From Puccinia triticina (Eukaryota > Basidiomycota > Pucciniomycetes > Pucciniales > Pucciniaceae): DNA of 64,000 nt. Under the pieces are notes generated by a model. That model saw only the letters and a program-made list of their open reading frames with translations. It did no database searches and was not told where the DNA came from. Of the stretch, positions 5,700-64,000 are shown in pieces. Location of the stretch: NCBI RefSeq assembly GCF_026914185.1, contig NC_070564.1:7254001-7318000 (forward strand). Reading direction: 5' to 3'. Each line of letters begins with the position of its first letter. The first letter of the stretch is position 1. The translations under genes and the position numbers were made by a program.

Positions 5700-6380
5700 A
5701 CTTTACCAGACTCACAGCTGTATTGTGAACTCTATGGCCAGCAAGCCCTTCGTGGTCACACAGCAACAAGTGTATATCGCAGCGTTTGAACACATCCCTG
5801 CAACTCCGATGAGACTTAACGCTACAAGAAAGTCGCCATTCCCTCCCTCTCAACCCAGGCCCTCTGGCCGGGTGGTCGCGGCATCCCACCGGCCCCGGGG
5901 CAACGCCCAAGAGACCCTGCGGGGCTGCTCCTATAGACCTCTGACCAGCGACTGTTGGGCTTGAAGTGAGATGAATAAACAAATTTTGTCCACTTGCCTC
6001 GGTGGAGATCGCTGCCTGTCCTGTGTACTGGTGACGGCAATCTCCAATTGATTAGTGAGACACCCTGACCTCGCATACGTGATAAACCAGACGCAGCAAA
6101 TGTGGAGACCATACTCTGCATGTTGAGACTCTCCCTGTCACATACAGGATAATGTTGAGTTGGTCAGGCTCGGAGAGTCTTGGAAATTTTGGAGCAACTG
6201 AAATGTTTTCCTTATCTCAATAACTTGTTGTATTTACATTTATTTATATTGAGATAAGAGAAAAGAGATCATCTGATTGAGGAATTGACCTGAAAGCAGC
6301 ACAAGTGGGTGCTTTGCTTTTAGGGATGATTGTTTTGGGTTGCTTTGTCTGAGTTTGAGCTGAGATGTGAGATGAGACAG
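5700..6380. other. Stretch without a recognisable gene
   Basis: Short frames on both strands have no recognisable protein features. A GC-rich block near 5830-5940 and an AT-rich block near 6230-6400 alternate. I see no RNA gene and no clear repeat boundary. Confidence 0.4.
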
Positions 6381-12189: not shown

Positions 12190-12500
12190 ATCTCTTGATG
12201 ACCGGTCTGTGCCGGTCATCGAGGGAATCACGTCTACAGACCGGTCATTGAGAGGACTCAGGTCTCCTCTTGATGACCGGTCTGTGCCGGTCATTGAGGG
12301 GAATCAGGTCTCCTTTTGATGACCGGTCTGTGCCGGTCATCGAGGGGACTCAGGTCTCCTTTTGATGACCGGTCTGTGCCGGTCATCGAGGGGACTCAGG
12401 TCTCCTTTTGATGACCGGTCTGTGCCGGTCATCAAGGGGACTCAGGTCTCCTCTTGATGACCGGTCTCTACCGGTCATCAAGAGGGTCTCGCCGGTCTTC
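12190..12500. repeat. Tandem array III of alternating palindromes (about 47-bp unit)
   Basis: Six to seven well-conserved units. Each has GATGACCGG-TCTGTG-CCGGTCATC (9-bp arms) followed by a second near-palindrome GGGACTCAGGTCTCC. Homogeneity is higher than in arrays I and II, suggesting a younger expansion. It lies inside the TA-flanked element. Confidence 0.8.
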
Positions 12501-14301: not shown

Positions 14302-14930
14302 GAGACAAGCACGTTCCAGCTGAGGTACCAGTTCAATGCTCCAGAATTTCAGCAGAAATTGAAAAGGGTTTTTTTTTTAGTGCTTATTGATTTGACATTG
14401 CGCACTGAAGTCTACTGAAGTACATGCTAGTAATGAAGATACATGCGATGATGTTTTTAAAATAAGAATAAAACTGGTTATTTTTAACGTTGAGCTGTGT
14501 GATTGAAAACGGGGTCAGACAAGGAGGCATTGAAGCTTGGATGAATCACTCTAGGCATTCACTCTGGCATTGGATTTGTCCATCTTAACCGGTTTCCGAC
14601 TGCACCCTTAGTCCATAATCCGGGATCTCGCCCCGAAGAAGAATCATTTGAGCGTTCCAACCATATTGAATCAACGTGGAAAGCAAGAGGAGTGGCCGTA
14701 GCCGAGTAAGTGTTTGGGCAAGAGTGGAGTAGTTGAATAAGTAGGTCGAGAGGGATGCTATCTGATGAAAAGATAAAAAGTACCCTACACGCCAACCTGC
14801 GTGGCGTTGACAGGGGTATGACCAGGAGAAATGTGGGGGGGATGAGAGTACATAGCCACTCTGGAGGTGGTGAGCCGAGGGCGAAGAACAAGGAGGCAGA
14901 TAAGTTTTGGGTGCGCCTCGAGGCAAGAAG
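14302..14930. other. Stretch without a recognisable gene
   Basis: Short frames only. The minus-strand frame ending at 14559 runs into the subterminal repeats of the next element and shows no protein features. Nothing else is recognised. Confidence 0.35.
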
Positions 14931-14944
14931 GACGGGGTGGAGGA

Positions 14945-15200
14945 AATTTACACCCGATGATTTACATCCATTGGCCCATGTAAAACACACCCATGTAAAA
15001 ATACACCGGACTGCTTGCAAAATTAAATTTACATCGGGCGGTGGAAAACCACCCAATGTAAATTGGTGCCATGTAACACCCAGCATGTAAAAAAAAAGCC
15101 GGCGGCGGCGCAGGTGCATTTTCACACCCAAGCGCAAAAGCTGACCTTTACGGAGCATGCAAATCTGCCAATCCCTGCAGATTAAATTAAATTTACATAC
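14945..15200 (+). repeat. 5' subterminal region of MULE copy 2
   Basis: At least ten copies of ATGTAAA/TTTACAT and close variants stand in both orientations (for example near 14947, 14961, 14978, 14991, 15027, 15055, 15071 and 15190). The same word class fills the 3' side at 21360-21600 and 22150-22240. This matches the multi-site subterminal regions to which MULE transposases bind. The exact terminus and target duplication were not found. Confidence 0.55.
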
Positions 15201-18200
15201 TAATATTTACACTCATTGTAACCTTCAGAGCTAACCGCGCATCCATCTCCCAATGTAGAACATCCAATCAACAAATATACCTCAAGTATACCAATGACCG
15301 TGGAACTCCTCTTCATTGGACCGCTTCAACCGCCGAACTGGACCGCTTCGACCTCGGAACAACATTGTATTTGCTGAAATCTTGGGATTGAAATCAAAGG
15401 TATGTTCTTGAACCCCCCCCCCCCCCCCAACCCGTCACCACCAGTTCACTTTTCACCTATTCCAATTGCTCTGCCCACCGATCCACTGTGTGATAACCAC
15501 ATTCTTTTATTTTTCACTCCACAACTCGCACCAAACCCACCACACCATCATTTAACATATACATCATGGCCCGGACCCCCAAAGAACAAGCCAACAGTCA
15601 ACTCTCTTCGACTTTGACTGCCAAGCCGCCGCCACCCTCAGGCGTCACCAAACCCAAGAAGTGGCAACTGCCAGCGGCCATGGACGAGCAGTTCAGCACG
15701 TTCATCGATCACGGCTCCACGCTTGACAGACAGGGATATCCCCTCTACCCCAACGGATCAACAACATATGTGCATCTGCCCAACTCTGATATCGTCAACT
15801 TCCCCAAGATTGGCTACTCCCAAACCGTCAACGTCAATAGCCGCACGCATAACACATGGAAAGTGATCCATGTTACTTGCCTTGGCGTATTACTATGCGA
15901 CCAAGACGAATGTGAATACGCTGGCCCACCCCCTACTGGCCCCGGAAAAATCCAAGAGTTCCTGAGCCAGTAAGTAATTTTAACTAATTTTCCCAGCCCT
16001 CGCCGTTACTTACTCACCCAATCATGATACTAATTTTATTCCGATATTTCCCAACCACAGGAACCCTGTATGTCCAGGATCCGCAGGTCGATGCCCAGGG
16101 AAAGTCTACTTGCAGGCCTGCAACGGAACCAAATGCCGGCTGGACATTCACCAGAGCGGCTGGGGCCTCCTCCGACACCAAGGACTCCACACTCATCCTT
16201 GGCCACACCCAAAAAAGCCCGCGCTGACTTCGTCGAGGAGATCAAGAAAAATCCCAGGGCAACGGCTCTTCAACTCAAGGTAAGCAAGCTACACTTGCCT
16301 AGTACTTGCAACAGTATCTGACAAGCACCTTCAGATTGGAAAAGCAACCGGGCCCAATAAGAAATTGGAAACCATTACCGACATACACGAGTCACTTGGC
16401 AACGCTGATCGGGCACGTTACTACCGACGAGAAATCCTCAAGCAGATTGAAGACAACGACAATCATAAGAGCGGCGGCACTGAAAAATTCTTGCATGACA
16501 TGTTTCAATGGGACAGGTTCAGTCGACCCACTTCCCTCCACATGTGTATTTTTTTTCAAAATTGACTTACTGACACACGTTTATGTTTCCAACTGTTTCC
16601 AACTATAGCAAGGGTTTAGAGGTCATCTCGTGTTCTTACCGGCGAGGGCGGGAACACTTCACTTTTCAAACACCTTGGATGTCGGAGCGGCTCTTGGAAC
16701 GCTCGGAGGACGGAAACCAACTATACTTGGGTGGTTTGATATCCGATGTCACATACCGGTTTTTCGAAGCGGGGTATTTACTAACCACCTCAATGTACTG
16801 TGACGATATACAGAGGTGGATTCCTGTACAGCTAAGCTGGATCCGCGGCCTATCGGAAGATTACTACACGATTCACTTTACGGTACTCTTTCGACAATTC
16901 CTTCTCCACTCCATCTTGCCAGAAGAGCGAGAGAAACTGGCCACCAGTATCGTCGACTTCTCCAAGGCTCAACAGAAAGGATTTGTGGCGGCCTATCTGG
17001 ATGTTTTTGGTAAGTCCAACGCACGTGAAGCGCTGAAGAAGCTCAAGGGCTGTAGGGAACATTTCCGGCAATCTGTCACTTGGGTGAAGCGCAACCGCGC
17101 GGTGATCAGGGCAGACGAAAAGGTGTGTTACAGTTTCAAATCTTCTCATTCCCTCTTAACCACAAGACTGACCGGACCCTCTGTTCGTCAAGAACACATT
17201 TCAATCTCTGTGTGTTGGCCTTTTGGAACCAACCAACGCCACCGGCCGAACCCATGAGGAAAAAATAGACGAGCTACGACGAAGATTTCCCAAAAGTCGA
17301 CGATGGCTTGACTGGTGGACGATGGCCGATGTTGAGGCCATTTTGTTCCCCAGTCGTCGGCCAATGATGGAGGACTTCCCAGATGGGAAAGATGGACTTC
17401 CAAGCTCAACTAACGCCCAGGAAAGCTTGCACAGAGTTTATTATATGTTCAGGTAAGCTACATCGGTCCATCAGCAACACTAACTACTTAATCCACCTAA
17501 CACTCATTCGTCCTCATGCAGCCCAGGTAAAAAAACCATGCTAAAGGGCATGATCGAGCTGTACGCCTTTGTGAAGGCCCTCGAACGTGACCATGGAATG
17601 GTTCTGCGTGGTATTCCGATCCGATACGGCTCGCAGCACAAGAATCAGGTTGACGTATCCGAATCGATTGGATGGACCAAACCCACCAAGCGACAAAGAG
17701 CAGCTACCAAAGAATGTACCGCCAAGAACAATGGCCGCCCACCAGACACCACCGAACTACTACTAGACGAGAAACCGGCCAAGCGGGCCAACAAGGGACG
17801 GCCACCGAACTCCGTTAACATTGATAGAAATCGTCACACAACCTACACTTCATACGCAGCCGCAAAGAAAGGAGCGTTCTCCAATTGTTGTTGGTTGGTG
17901 GCCGCACTCGAATCTCTCTACGCCATCTTCAGCCCTCTGTGGCTGAAAGAATCAGGGGGGAAAGATACGGACTTATTCAACCGTGTTGTTACGCATTTCT
18001 CATCACGGGCCACCCACGAGCTGACCAAAAGTAAGGGATTGCTTACTTTCCTGACTACGGGATCCAGGAGTTTATTCAATGATATTCAGGCGCTTCGTCC
18101 CGAGTCTTTTATACCTGGGAGGTTTGCCTCCTGTGATCTTTTCATTGAGAGCGTCCTTGATCCGAGTCATAACTCATGCAACGTATTGCGCAACCTATTT

Positions 18201-18691
18201 TTGGTCGATGAGTGCCGCACGTTCACCTGTCTTCGTCACAAGGGCCGAGTCCATCATCCCCGAGAGAATAGATTAACTACAGTCCTTAGGATTAAAGATT
18301 CAATGTTTGATAACAATGGAATCAGTCGAACCGATCCTGCGCTGCTCGTGACACTTTGGTCAACCGTGGGTCTCACTGGGTTCTCCGGGCTACATTGCAA
18401 ATCTTATCTGACCGATTCGAAGAAGAAACATGGTCGCAAAGGGAAGAAGATTGAAGACCTAGACTTGTCTGATCCGGCGAAGCTAGAAGAATTATCGGTG
18501 ATCAGGTCCCCTGAAGCTAATCCGCCTGCGCATCTCCATTTCCACATTGAAACGGCCACCATTCTTGACAGTAACGATCAGCTGAAGTTTGTGAACGAGA
18601 TGAATTGGCCTTTCAAGCTCGTGGTGCTTGGCGTGGAATACACATTAATATCTTGCGGCTTCTTTGGCCATTCACACTATTGGGGTAAGGT

Positions 18692-19919
18692 CACCAGGAA
18701 AAAAAAAAGTCACTTGATGACAAGTGACATCATGCCAGCTCCAGCGGGCTACCCATCATCTACCCACCATCTACCCATCATCTACCCACCATCTAACCAC
18801 TTTCAGAATTTCCACAGGAGATCCTCAGTTTTCAATGGGCACCACTGATCCCCATTTCTGGTCAGCTGATACTCAGCTTTAGCTCCAAGCTTATGCTCAG
18901 CTTTGTTGCCCAGCTCATGCTCAGCTTTGCTGCCCAGATCAGAACCAGTCCTGGCCCAGCTGCGTTTCAGCTTTTTTCCACTCATGGCTCATCTTAGACT
19001 CATACTAGGACTATCATTGGCCCAGCCAATGCTCAGCTTTGGACCAGTATTGGCTCAGCTGATTTTCAGCTTTGGATAAAGCTCGGCCCAGCCAATTCTC
19101 AGATTATGAGTCTGACCACTCCTGTAACAGCTTATGCTCATCTGTGGACCAGCCTTGGCTCAGCTGATGCTCAGCTGTGGACCAACCTTGGCTAAGACAA
19201 TGCTCAGCTGTGGACCAGCCTTGTCTCAGCTGATGCTCAGCTGTGGACCAGCCTTGGCTCAGCTGATGCTCAGCTGTGGACCAGCCTTGGCTCAGCTGAT
19301 GCTCAGCTGATGCTCAGCTGATGCTCAGCTGTGGAACAGCCTTGGCTCAGGTGATATTAATCTTTTGAATAGTCTTAAAACATCTGATACTCAGCTTTAG
19401 AACAGCCTTGGCTCAGCCAATGCTCAGCTTTGTACCAGCATTGGCTCAGCTGATGCTCAGCTTTTGAAAAGTTTTGGCCCAGCTGGTGTTAATCTTTGGA
19501 ACAGTATTGTCCCAGCTGATCCTAAGCTCTGCACAAGCCTTTTCCAAGATGATGCTCAGCTTTGGACCATTGTTGGCTAAGCTGATGCTCAGATTTGGAA
19601 TATTCTTGGTCCAGCTGACACTTGAGTTTGTATCAGACTTGGAATATCCAATGCTCAGCTGTGGCCCAGGCTCAGCCAATGCTCAGCTTTGGCCCAGGCT
19701 CAGTCAATGCCTACTGCTCAGCTTATGATGAGCATCAGCTGTTCCTGGGAAAAAAATTAGGATCAGCTGACTGTGCCACATTGAGTGCTCTGGTGCAGTC
19801 CTGCAAGCTCTAAAAGTGCTGGTGGAGCAGACTTGGAGCAGCGCTGGAGTAGCTCTGGAGCAGAAACCAAAGCTGCATCATGTCACTTGCCATCAAGTGA
19901 CTATTTTTTTTTCCTGGTG
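18692..19919. mobile_element. CACTA-like non-autonomous element inside the protease domain
   Basis: Ends are inverted: CACCAGGAAAAAAAAA at the left and its inverse TTTTTTTTTCCTGGTG at the right. Next comes AGTCACTTGATG, also inverted on the other side, then CAAGTGACAT. GGT flanks both sides (18689-18691 and 19920-19922). Removing the insert and one GGT restores the frame GKVLRHANGLLGVW, which matches the organisation of copy 1. A 3-bp duplication with ends starting CAC fits the CACTA/CMC superfamily. The interior is minisatellite, with no transposase. Confidence 0.8.
18850..19730. repeat. Degenerate minisatellite (CAGCTGATGCTCAGCT family)
   Basis: Tens of diverged units of roughly 30-34 bp built from CAGCTGATGCTCAGCT plus GTGGACCAGCCTTGGCT. 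The most regular stretch is 19190-19340, where nearly identical units follow each other. It makes up most of the CACTA-like insert. CAGCTG is itself a palindrome. Frames through it are not coding. Confidence 0.8.
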
Positions 19920-21354
19920 GGTGTTACGTCACGCTAACGGTTTATTGGGAGTGTGGTGTCATGACGACCGACTGAATGGAGGGCGTGCTTATATGGTGGA
20001 CACGACTCCCGGGAGCATAAGTGGAGCCCAGGAGCACACAAGCTGGCTCCTTTACTCTCGAAGTTGGACGCCCGAGGAGTCTGCCTTTGTTGACAAGAGT
20101 ACTTCACAAATCTTGAAGGACAACCCCCGATTTCCAGCTCGGATACCTTTTACGCGCATGAAAACCATTTTTCAGGCTTCTTACAATGGTGAAACGCCGG
20201 CGGCACTCTCAGAAATTGCGGTGTGCGGCAATATTCCTCTTGTGCCAGTTCCATCCACATCGATCACGCCAGCCAACGGAGCAGGGACGATTCAAGGTAA
20301 GCCCTCATATCTAATATCATTTCTTTTCACACCGACTAACCCTCATTGTCCTGGAATTTCAGCTGAATTGGCGATGGCCAATTCCGCTGACAAGGTTCAG
20401 AATCCTGTGGGATCCCTGAAGATTCGGATTCGACGTCCAGCAAGCATGGCTGTCGGAGCAACCTCCGCTCCGTCTCCGGCTCCGCCGGGGGTTAAGATTT
20501 CACCAGCAAAGCGAAAGCGTGGCCGTCCCGGTAAGACAGAAACGTCCTTGACTCCCGGCCCAGTTTCAATGCCAGCCATCGCGCCGGCAAAGCGTTTCCG
20601 CCCCATTAAACTTTTACCGGCATCCGCTCCTCCGCAGCCTCCGGTGGCTACAGCGAAACGTGGGCGCCCCAGGAAGGTGCCAAGCGTCGCCACCTCACTC
20701 ACTTTCAAGCCAGAACCTCTGTCCAGTGCGAATGAGGAGCGGATCCGGGCCCGATCCGAGGCCTACTGGAAAGAACTTCGATGGGAACCATCCCAAGAAG
20801 GCAAGAAAGGTGAATTCAACCCCCTCCTCACCGTTAAAAAACAAGCCAACTGACATTTACTGCTTTTGGTATTTTTTGCTGCCTGGCCTTTTTAGACAAC
20901 ATCGGTGCAACTGCGGCTTCTCAAATGGATTCTGTATTTGCGGAGCCACTCCCCGCAACGACTCCTGCCACCAGGAACAAGCGGCTCAGAACAACTAAGG
21001 AGTCGGTTAAAAGCCATTACCGGGGGGAGCAGCCCTCCGCCGCCGACAAGGAGCCAGCGTCAACAGCGAGCAAGGTTGTTGCTTTTTGGAATAGCCAGAA
21101 GGCAGCGGCAGCGGCGATCAAACCAAAGGTGAAGAGAGCAGCTGGCAGGAAGGCGCGTGCTTGAGGTTTTGCAGGAAGTTTTCCATTCATTCCTGATTAT
21201 TTGTTTTTTCTCTCAATTTTACGCTTTTTTTTTTGTTGCTTGGTTGCGCAAGAGCCAAGTAATTCCAATTTCTACTTCTTACTAATTGTTTGGTTTCATT
21301 TGCCATTGATTTCTGTCTTGTTTGTGGTATGTCCTTTTACGATGATAGGAAGCT

Positions 21355-22250
21355 AGCATGTAAAATTGCATCCTGAGGCGCTGTATGTTAATTTCACACT
21401 GTATCATTTTTACATTGGGGGTCCATTGTAAATCCTACAGCGTGAATTTATTTAAATTGGCTTCGGTTTTGACTTTTACATTGTGTAGCTTTGCTTGGGA
21501 CGGACTTTGTAAAAGATAGCTCGTAATTTCTTTCTTTTCATGACCGAGCATGCATTTTTACATGGCACGCATTACATAGGTTCTTTTACATGACACCTCA
21601 ATTAGGCTAGCTTAACTAAGCCTCTTGAACGGAGGGTCCGGGGGACCCCGCCCGGAGGGCTCTCCGCAGGAGAGGCTTATGAGTTATGTCTTGATTTAAG
21701 CAGGAGCAGAAAGGATCTGCTACACTAAAAATCCCAACCAATATAGAAAAACTGAATACACAGAGCTGTAGGTTCTGTTCTTGCAATCAATTTGAACCAC
21801 TTATCTATCTTGTAGCCAGAAAAACAACTCCTGGAGTCCCAAACAAGTGGAGCCTCATTTGGAAGACTTGTGCATTTTTGATCTTTTGAAAAGGTCAACA
21901 GATTGAGATAGAAAAAATCTGAGTAGACCAAAATGTAGAGAAAGAAAAGTAGCATAGGGTACAGATAGGGCATATTGGTGGAGAGGCTGGGGGAGGAGCT
22001 ATAAAAATTTTAAAAACCTCTCAGCCAAATGAACTTTCTGCTCCCGCGTAAAATTTGGGATAATGCACAAGTCCCTCCCTGCGGGAGGGGCGGCTTCGCC
22101 GCCAGCCACAGCGCTCCCACCAGGGGGGACTTGTGTTAAGTTAGTCAATTAGGCCATCAATGTAAAATTATTTGTTGAGCTGGACATATTTAAATTTACA
22201 TAGGATGGTTTTACATTGCACTTCCAATGTAAAGTACAGGATGCAAAAAT
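21355..22250 (+). repeat. 3' subterminal region of MULE copy 2 (split by a nested element)
   Basis: After the stop codon, TTTACAT/ATGTAAA words recur at 21358-21600 and resume at 22160-22240 beyond the nested element 21607-22144. The two parts therefore once formed one continuous end. The last ATGTAAA (about 22228) is under 100 bp from the AAR2 start codon. Confidence 0.5.
21607..22144. mobile_element. Nested 538-bp MULE-like MITE with 9-bp target duplication
   Basis: TCAATTAGG flanks both sides (21598-21606 and 22145-22153). The left end CTAGCTTAACTAAG matches the inverse of the right end (CTAACTTAACACAAG), an imperfect terminal repeat. A 9-bp duplication is the hallmark of MULEs. The interior has G+C-rich hairpin blocks (GGAGGGTCCGGGGGACCC, CCTCCCTGCGGGAGG) and no complete gene. 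A fragment with similar end sequence (CCTTAACACAAGTCCCTCCC) occurs near 28424. Confidence 0.8.
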
Positions 22251-22323
22251 CAACATCCCCGAGAAGGACCATCCAGAACAAAAACGAACAGGAAGAATCA
22301 GTCGACTGGAAACCAACGACCAC

Positions 22324-62950: not shown

Positions 62951-64000
62951 ATGGCCCGCAAAAAGAAAAACACCGCCCGCAACCCTCCTCCCACTCCTCC
63001 TCTCAATCATCCGACATTATCTGCTACCCCCACGATATCGGCGCCCAAAATAGTGAAGACCCCCGCAATATCCATTCCCAATTCCGGAAACACACAGACT
63101 TCCAAAACCTCCGCCCACCCTGAAATTGAAAAGCCGAATCCTACCGAACCTGAAGACGAGCCAAACTGGCAGTACCCTACCGCCATGGATGAAGGCTTCA
63201 ATACTTTTATTGATCATGGTTGCCGGTTAGACAGGCAGGGGTATCCGCTTTACCCGAATGGATCTACCACTTTTGTCCTCACCGCCGGTACCGAGATTGT
63301 GAATTTTGGATCGGTTGGGTTCACCAAGAGATCCAGCAACGACACCAAGTCCGACGAGTGGCAAGTCACGCGATATTACTGCCGTGGTGTTTTACGATGC
63401 GATGAGAATGGTTGTGATTATGCTGGCCCCCCGCCGACTGGACACGGTAAAATTGAAGAGCTTCTCAGCACGTAAGTCCTTAGTTCCCTCTCATTCATTA
63501 CAACATCAGGACTGAATGCAAACTTTTTTCTTCATTTCAGTAACCCCTCATGCAAAGGGCTTGCAGGTTGATGCCCAGGGAAGATCCGCTGGCAAAGCTG
63601 CTCGGGAACTCAATGTCAATTTGATATCCACAAGAAAACTGGATGGGGTCTCCTCCGACACCGAGGTAATCACAATCATCGGTGGCCATCGTCAAAGAAA
63701 CCAGACCCCTTGGCAAAGAAGGATCTAGTTGAAACTGTCAAAAAAAATCCTAAGGCATCCGCGCTCCAGCTCAAGGTTTGATTTTTTTGTTTCTGCCCAG
63801 CTCCCCCTCCCTCCAATTTCATTTCACCCAGATAAGCTGACCTTTAAAATATTTTCCGATCAAAATATAGATTGGTAAAGCCGGTGGGCCTGGCGAGCCA
63901 AGTGACAGTGTTGTTAACATCCATGAATCCCTCGGCCACTCGGACCGGCTTCGTCACCTTCGTCGTCAGATACTTCAGCAGATCGATTTTGGTTCAGGGA
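62951..64000 (+). pseudogene. MULE-type transposase/USP-like protease gene, copy 3, 5' part
   Basis: Starts MARKKKNTARNPPPT (ATG 62951; an upstream in-frame ATG is at 62942). Exon 1 ends at 63471, exon 2 is 63541-63775, and exon 3 starts at 63871 and leaves the window. It aligns along its length with copy 2: DEGFNTFIDHGCRLDRQGYP, LRCDENGCDYAGPPPTG, CSGTQC and GLLRHRGNHNH of the zinc finger, then NPKASALQLK and VNIHESLGHSDRLRH. One TGA (63569-63571) stands exactly where copy 2 has CGA (AGRCPGK). The frame is otherwise open, including the A-run where copy 2 slips. Confidence 0.78.

Follow-up and report, generated by a model that had tools for sequence, protein, structure and literature searches.

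Within a window of 64,000 nucleotides from the rust fungus Puccinia triticina (contig NC_070564.1, positions 7,254,001 to 7,318,000 of the forward strand, here numbered from 1), the stretch 14934-22260 (+) is a decayed copy of MuDRF, a Mutator-like element (MULE). We consider it rather probable that its predicted single gene consists of a GCM domain, a DDE transposase and a C-terminal protease of the ubiquitin-specific protease (USP) fold, and that this protease frees the transposase of attached ubiquitin or ubiquitin-like protein and so averts its destruction. The direct support for this reading is that the domains follow one order, that the fold is predicted with confidence, that the catalytic residues are conserved, that one usable comparison shows purifying selection, that the parts move together inside a single element with 9-bp target duplications, and that the arrangement recurs in several rust species.

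Transposase and protease in one mobile family

The genome search covered the window's own assembly (122.8 Mb, 18 contigs), and the matches that were scored are lower bounds: at least 150 for the transposase, at least 106 for the first protease part and at least 150 for the second. At 130 of the 150 scored transposase matches a protease part follows on the same strand, at most 6 kb downstream; none (0/150) has one upstream and one (1/150) has one on the opposite strand; seen from the other side, a transposase match stands upstream of 99 of the 106 first-part and 126 of the 150 second-part protease matches. Along its full length, the protease exon of the window copy matches a P. triticina protein at 74% identity, and its named homologues belong to Puccinia. 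Because of this homologue and of the one fixed order of the 150 transposase and 106 protease scored matches, we rejected the view that the window motifs arose by chance; all motifs named in an earlier note on this DNA exist at their window positions.

A profile search returned 87 proteins, and among the 79 with an organism name, 77 are from Puccinia and 2 from Melampsora. Long gene models common to both genera span the region from the zinc finger to the protease, and in 25 of 92 sequences a single model holds the Cys box together with both the Glu box and the second Asp box. The fusion proposed in the earlier note was found again in other rusts, since transposase and protease travel together both in recent elements and in the gene models of several species.

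For detailed comparison we fetched 20 element copies, which fall into seven subfamilies and whose main blocks common to subfamily members are 98.5-99.9% identical. The recent copies are 4.8-6.1 kb long, and all 19 copies whose ends were checked are flanked by exact repeats of 9 bp or more. The 9-bp target-site duplication of MuDRF is thus found in 19 of 19 copies, and with 8 of 9 bases at the window copy. These 19 copies are recent insertions of an MuDRF-type element, as such elements are defined in PMC3164196. Some recent copies have all their domain exons open and others contain stops, and in recent copies the protease shares one open frame with the transposase C-terminus.

The predicted model of one relative (P0026) has a GCM fold (structure match 1odh, E 4.6e-4, TM 0.57 of the target), UniRef labels several relatives as GCM domain-containing, and Pfam GCM matches the window weakly (E 0.15); judging from the model, the transposase protein appears to contain the GCM-type zinc domain of MuDRF. 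The three DDE boxes are present and conserved, yet no Pfam or NCBIfam MULE model matched.

One metagenome protein of 870 aa (P0091), a distant relative whose transposase is 25% identical to that of the Melampsora larici-populina relative P0076 over 436 columns, shows by eye an NCCW motif followed later by His and Asp-like residues and may contain a diverged version of the protease. We did not count it as a protease carrier because the alignment of its C-terminal half failed at the catalytic columns. A search with P0091 as query returned only P0091 itself and a scan of viral contigs returned nothing; with the catalytic columns unaligned and no further relatives found, the idea of a wider family outside rusts was dropped.

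The predicted protease and its active site

The protease domain is confidently predicted to have the USP fold: this fold was obtained in the predicted models of two relatives, USPL1 was the top Foldseek match, and USPL1 and USP16 are both among the structural matches of the predicted protease model. Ulp1 and OTU structures are absent among the matches listed, which excludes nothing. The proposal in the earlier note that a USP-like, not an Ulp1-like, protease is fused to the MULE transposase is supported by these predictions.

In the alignment the catalytic Cys is kept in 50 of 51 cases, His in 45 of 46 and Asp or Asn in 42 of 45, and they stand in the order Cys-His-Asp/Asn, as had been claimed from the window letters. 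To judge from the aligned residues, this order corresponds to that of USP and USPL1 enzymes, in which the third catalytic residue is Asp or Asn. Ulp1 (C48) proteases, the class known from other MULEs, form another family with the catalytic order His-Asp-Cys, whereas Cys stands first here; the Asp-x-His arrangement of VTD enzymes is likewise not found, Asp/Asn 390 sitting 19 residues after His 371 in relative P0008. At the active Cys stands CWL, as in USPL1, and recent copies retain the predicted active site. The family is like the USPL1/USP enzymes in predicted fold and catalytic order, and unlike them in being fused to a transposase; Pfam and PDB sequence searches detected no sequence relation to them.

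For the ratio of nonsynonymous to synonymous substitution rates (dN/dS), usable dS values (0.1-1.5) for the transposase and protease domains came from one between-subfamily comparison only, whose 10 pairs gave 0.12-0.13 for the protease and 0.08-0.09 for the exon with the first and second Asp (D1-D2), and which, because the pairs share history, counts in effect once. The stretch between the D1-D2 exon and the protease has dN/dS of about 0.05 in the same pairs, with dS near 1.05, and 0.18 against one other copy. In the one usable comparison the protease thus appears to be under purifying selection, as would be expected of a domain that the element needs.

Several points weigh against this reading, and the shared history of the 10 pairs is one of them. 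The C-terminal tail has dN/dS of about 1.1 in 4 pairs from other subfamilies, with dN above 1, and is probably unconstrained or not truly alignable. The full-length model has a pTM of 0.46, so that the overall arrangement of the domains is uncertain. A PDB sequence search returned no USP, and in the Pfam profile check proposed with the earlier note none of 57 relatives matched any family at E 0.01; because the family sequence profiles were unmatched, we use the name USP-fold and do not speak of a C19 or C98 member. No protease match lies within 6 kb of 20 of the 150 scored transposase matches, although 1 of these 20 was later paired by using another query. Finally, the window copy itself is broken twice, by a change of frame near 16220 and by a nested element behind the His box.

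Possible roles of the protease and known systems

In the mechanism that we propose, the GCM domain would attach to the ends of the element, DNA cutting and joining would fall to the DDE core, and the protease would take ubiquitin or SUMO off a target protein. We infer that these parts are translated as a single protein, that the protease has isopeptidase activity and that its target, in cis, is the transposase and not host chromatin proteins. The simplest benefit of such action in cis would be that a transposase undoing its own tagging persists longer, and the protease would be likely to aid survival of the transposase in the host cell. We give about an even chance to the fuller proposal that rust MuDRF took up an isopeptidase of the USP fold, USPL1-like and of a class not known from MULEs, which became a third, conserved part of the transposase and which, as an active deubiquitinase or deSUMOylase, protects the transposase from turnover by the host and helped the elements to spread in rust genomes.

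The main rival to protection in cis is action on chromatin, in which the protease, working in trans at the element or its target site, would remove ubiquitin or SUMO from histones or from silencing factors and so open the chromatin for expression or insertion. The fused DNA-binding domain would put the protease on chromatin, and USPL1 and USP16, which turned up as structural matches, act on nuclear proteins; nothing in our analysis distinguishes trans from cis, and we hold this alternative to be rather unlikely. Self-processing, in which the protease would cut itself off from the transposase, is suggested by its terminal place in a long fused protein, a position often held by viral processing proteases, and by the cleavage after Gly-Gly that enzymes with the USP fold carry out. 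It seems improbable to us: the predicted fold is an isopeptidase fold, and no conserved cleavage site was noticed, although no search aimed at one was made. A catalytically dead USP fold that merely binds ubiquitin or partner proteins would fit the distance in sequence from known USPs, and dead USP folds such as USP39 exist, but the near-complete conservation of Cys, His and Asp or Asn makes this highly improbable. That the protease is a host fragment picked up by the element, or a distinct gene next to it, with no role in transposition is hardly credible: MULEs do capture gene fragments, and introns part the domains save for the shared frame of transposase C-terminus and protease, but a single order prevails at 130 of 150 scored loci and is common to Puccinia and Melampsora, the protease has dN/dS of about 0.13, and its open frame is joint with the transposase C-terminus in recent copies.

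A similar protective role has been proposed for VTD deubiquitinases of Helentrons, which according to the authors of PMC9741609 may guard proteins needed in transposition from the proteasome; VTD is likewise a papain-like deubiquitinase borne by a DNA transposon, unlike the family here in its Asp-x-His active site and in belonging to rolling-circle elements. MuDRF was described from rusts and other basidiomycetes with GCM and DDE domains in one protein and a 9-bp target duplication (Cantu et al. 2011, PMC3164196), a paper that also names Repbase MuDRF entries of Laccaria, Schizophyllum, Coprinopsis and Naegleria. The present family is like it in its GCM and DDE transposase, its 9-bp duplication and its occurrence in Puccinia and Melampsora, and unlike it in the protease domain added here, the main text of that paper being without the words protease, peptidase and ubiquitin. 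MULEs with Ulp1 (C48) proteases occur in plants, hydra and lancelet, as cited in PMC2836005, and are similar in that a MULE-type element bears a protease of the ubiquitin/SUMO pathway. The same source describes Ginger1 transposons that carry OTU or Ulp1, for which its authors propose a protease role in transposition or DNA repair, and one Trichomonas protein composed of transposase_11 and Peptidase C19. These share with the family here a C-terminal (iso)peptidase fused to a transposase, the Trichomonas one being also of the C19 class; the transposases are unrelated, and the Trichomonas case is a single protein as opposed to a large, recently mobile family. The terms GCM, protease, peptidase and ULP are all absent from the main text of a 2019 Mutator survey (PMC6446971), and a USP-fold protease in a MULE was not found in the literature searched, whose reach left out most subscription papers and Repbase notes.

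Ulp1, OTU and VTD proteases have already been reported, each in DNA transposons of another kind; a USP-fold protease in a MULE would be a separate recruitment. The many near-identical recent copies make testable the idea that transposition must overcome ubiquitin/SUMO control, and the family accounts for a number of rust 'hypothetical proteins', which go unrecognised by Pfam and belong to transposons.

The window copy and its nested element

The bounds of the window element were set by comparison with a recent relative of 5731 bp (L027), window 14934 corresponding to its base 1 and window 22260 to its base 5731, and in the coding part the two are about 70% identical. The element has GGGG...CCCC termini, and the 9-mers beside it (14925-14933 and 22261-22269) share 8 of their 9 bases. 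A blind search of the window alone for an inverted repeat plus duplication missed these ends at the cut-off used; they were recovered via the comparison with recent copies. The extent of 15566..21164 given in the earlier note lies inside the element, which reaches further on both sides, and its reconstruction of this extent as a single gene is contradicted by the frame shift and the nested element.

All coding parts are on the forward strand. Predicted exon 1 (15566..15969), an open frame whose ATG and splice donor were placed by eye, begins the GCM-type zinc domain and contains the zinc-ligand stretch CLGVLLCDQDEC (15878-15913). Predicted exon 2 (16061..16279), located by tblastn with the L027 exon, holds the rest of the zinc domain with CNGTKC...HTH (16119-16196) and then a linker in another frame; the L027 exon matched here as two pieces in two frames with the break near 16220, unlike in L027 itself, where the linker is continuous. 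The first and second Asp are on the transposase exon 16604..17122 (SDVTYRF 16742-16762, VDFSKAQ 16952-16972), and the Glu-box exon is contained in the open frame 17172..17456 (TNAQESLHR 17409-17435). Next comes 17523..18691, which holds the C-terminal end of the transposase together with the first protease part (USP fold); here the transposase end, the Cys box NCCWLVAALESL (17883-17918) and the His box SHYW (18672-18683) lie in one open frame of 454 aa. The second protease part is at 19925..20126, with the Asp/Asn box VWCHDDR (19951-19971) and TSWLLYSR (20038-20061).

The two protease parts are separated by 18692..19919, which is a non-autonomous CACTA-like element, not an intron. This insert of 1228 bp sits directly behind the His box, has a perfect 16-bp inverted repeat and contains 33-bp tandem repeats; its family has 876 candidates in the genome, of which 40 long copies were scored (the window copy and 39 others). 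CACTA elements have CAC...GTG termini and a 3-bp target duplication, and both were found at all 4 insert loci examined, the window locus included; because the insert is without a transposase, the assignment rests on these ends and the duplication. An ordinary gene with a 1.2-kb intron was ruled out, as the intervening repeat recurs elsewhere with the same ends and has target duplications of its own.

The low-complexity C-terminal tail (20127..21164) has two RGRP cores (20518-20529 and 20659-20670), which correspond to the AT-hooks of the earlier note and are not kept in most relatives. As a constant part of the family they were rejected, because a simple pattern finds AT-hook-like cores in 3 of 23 long C-terminal tails and Pfam AT_hook in the window is below its cut-off.

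Near both element ends, at 14961-15198 and 21358-22227, ATGTAAA/TTTACAT motifs are numerous and denser than in the rest of the window; they are possible binding sites of the transposase. An Rfam scan of the window gave no match at gathering scores. A tandem array lies at 12241-12479 (46-bp unit, 5.2 copies, 95% match). Two further MuDRF copies are clipped by the window edges, one at the start, with its His/Asp-box exon at 891-1148 and its transposase just before the window, and one at the end, with zinc/linker exons at 63380-63777 and its transposase and protease just beyond, so that three copies lie within about 70 kb.
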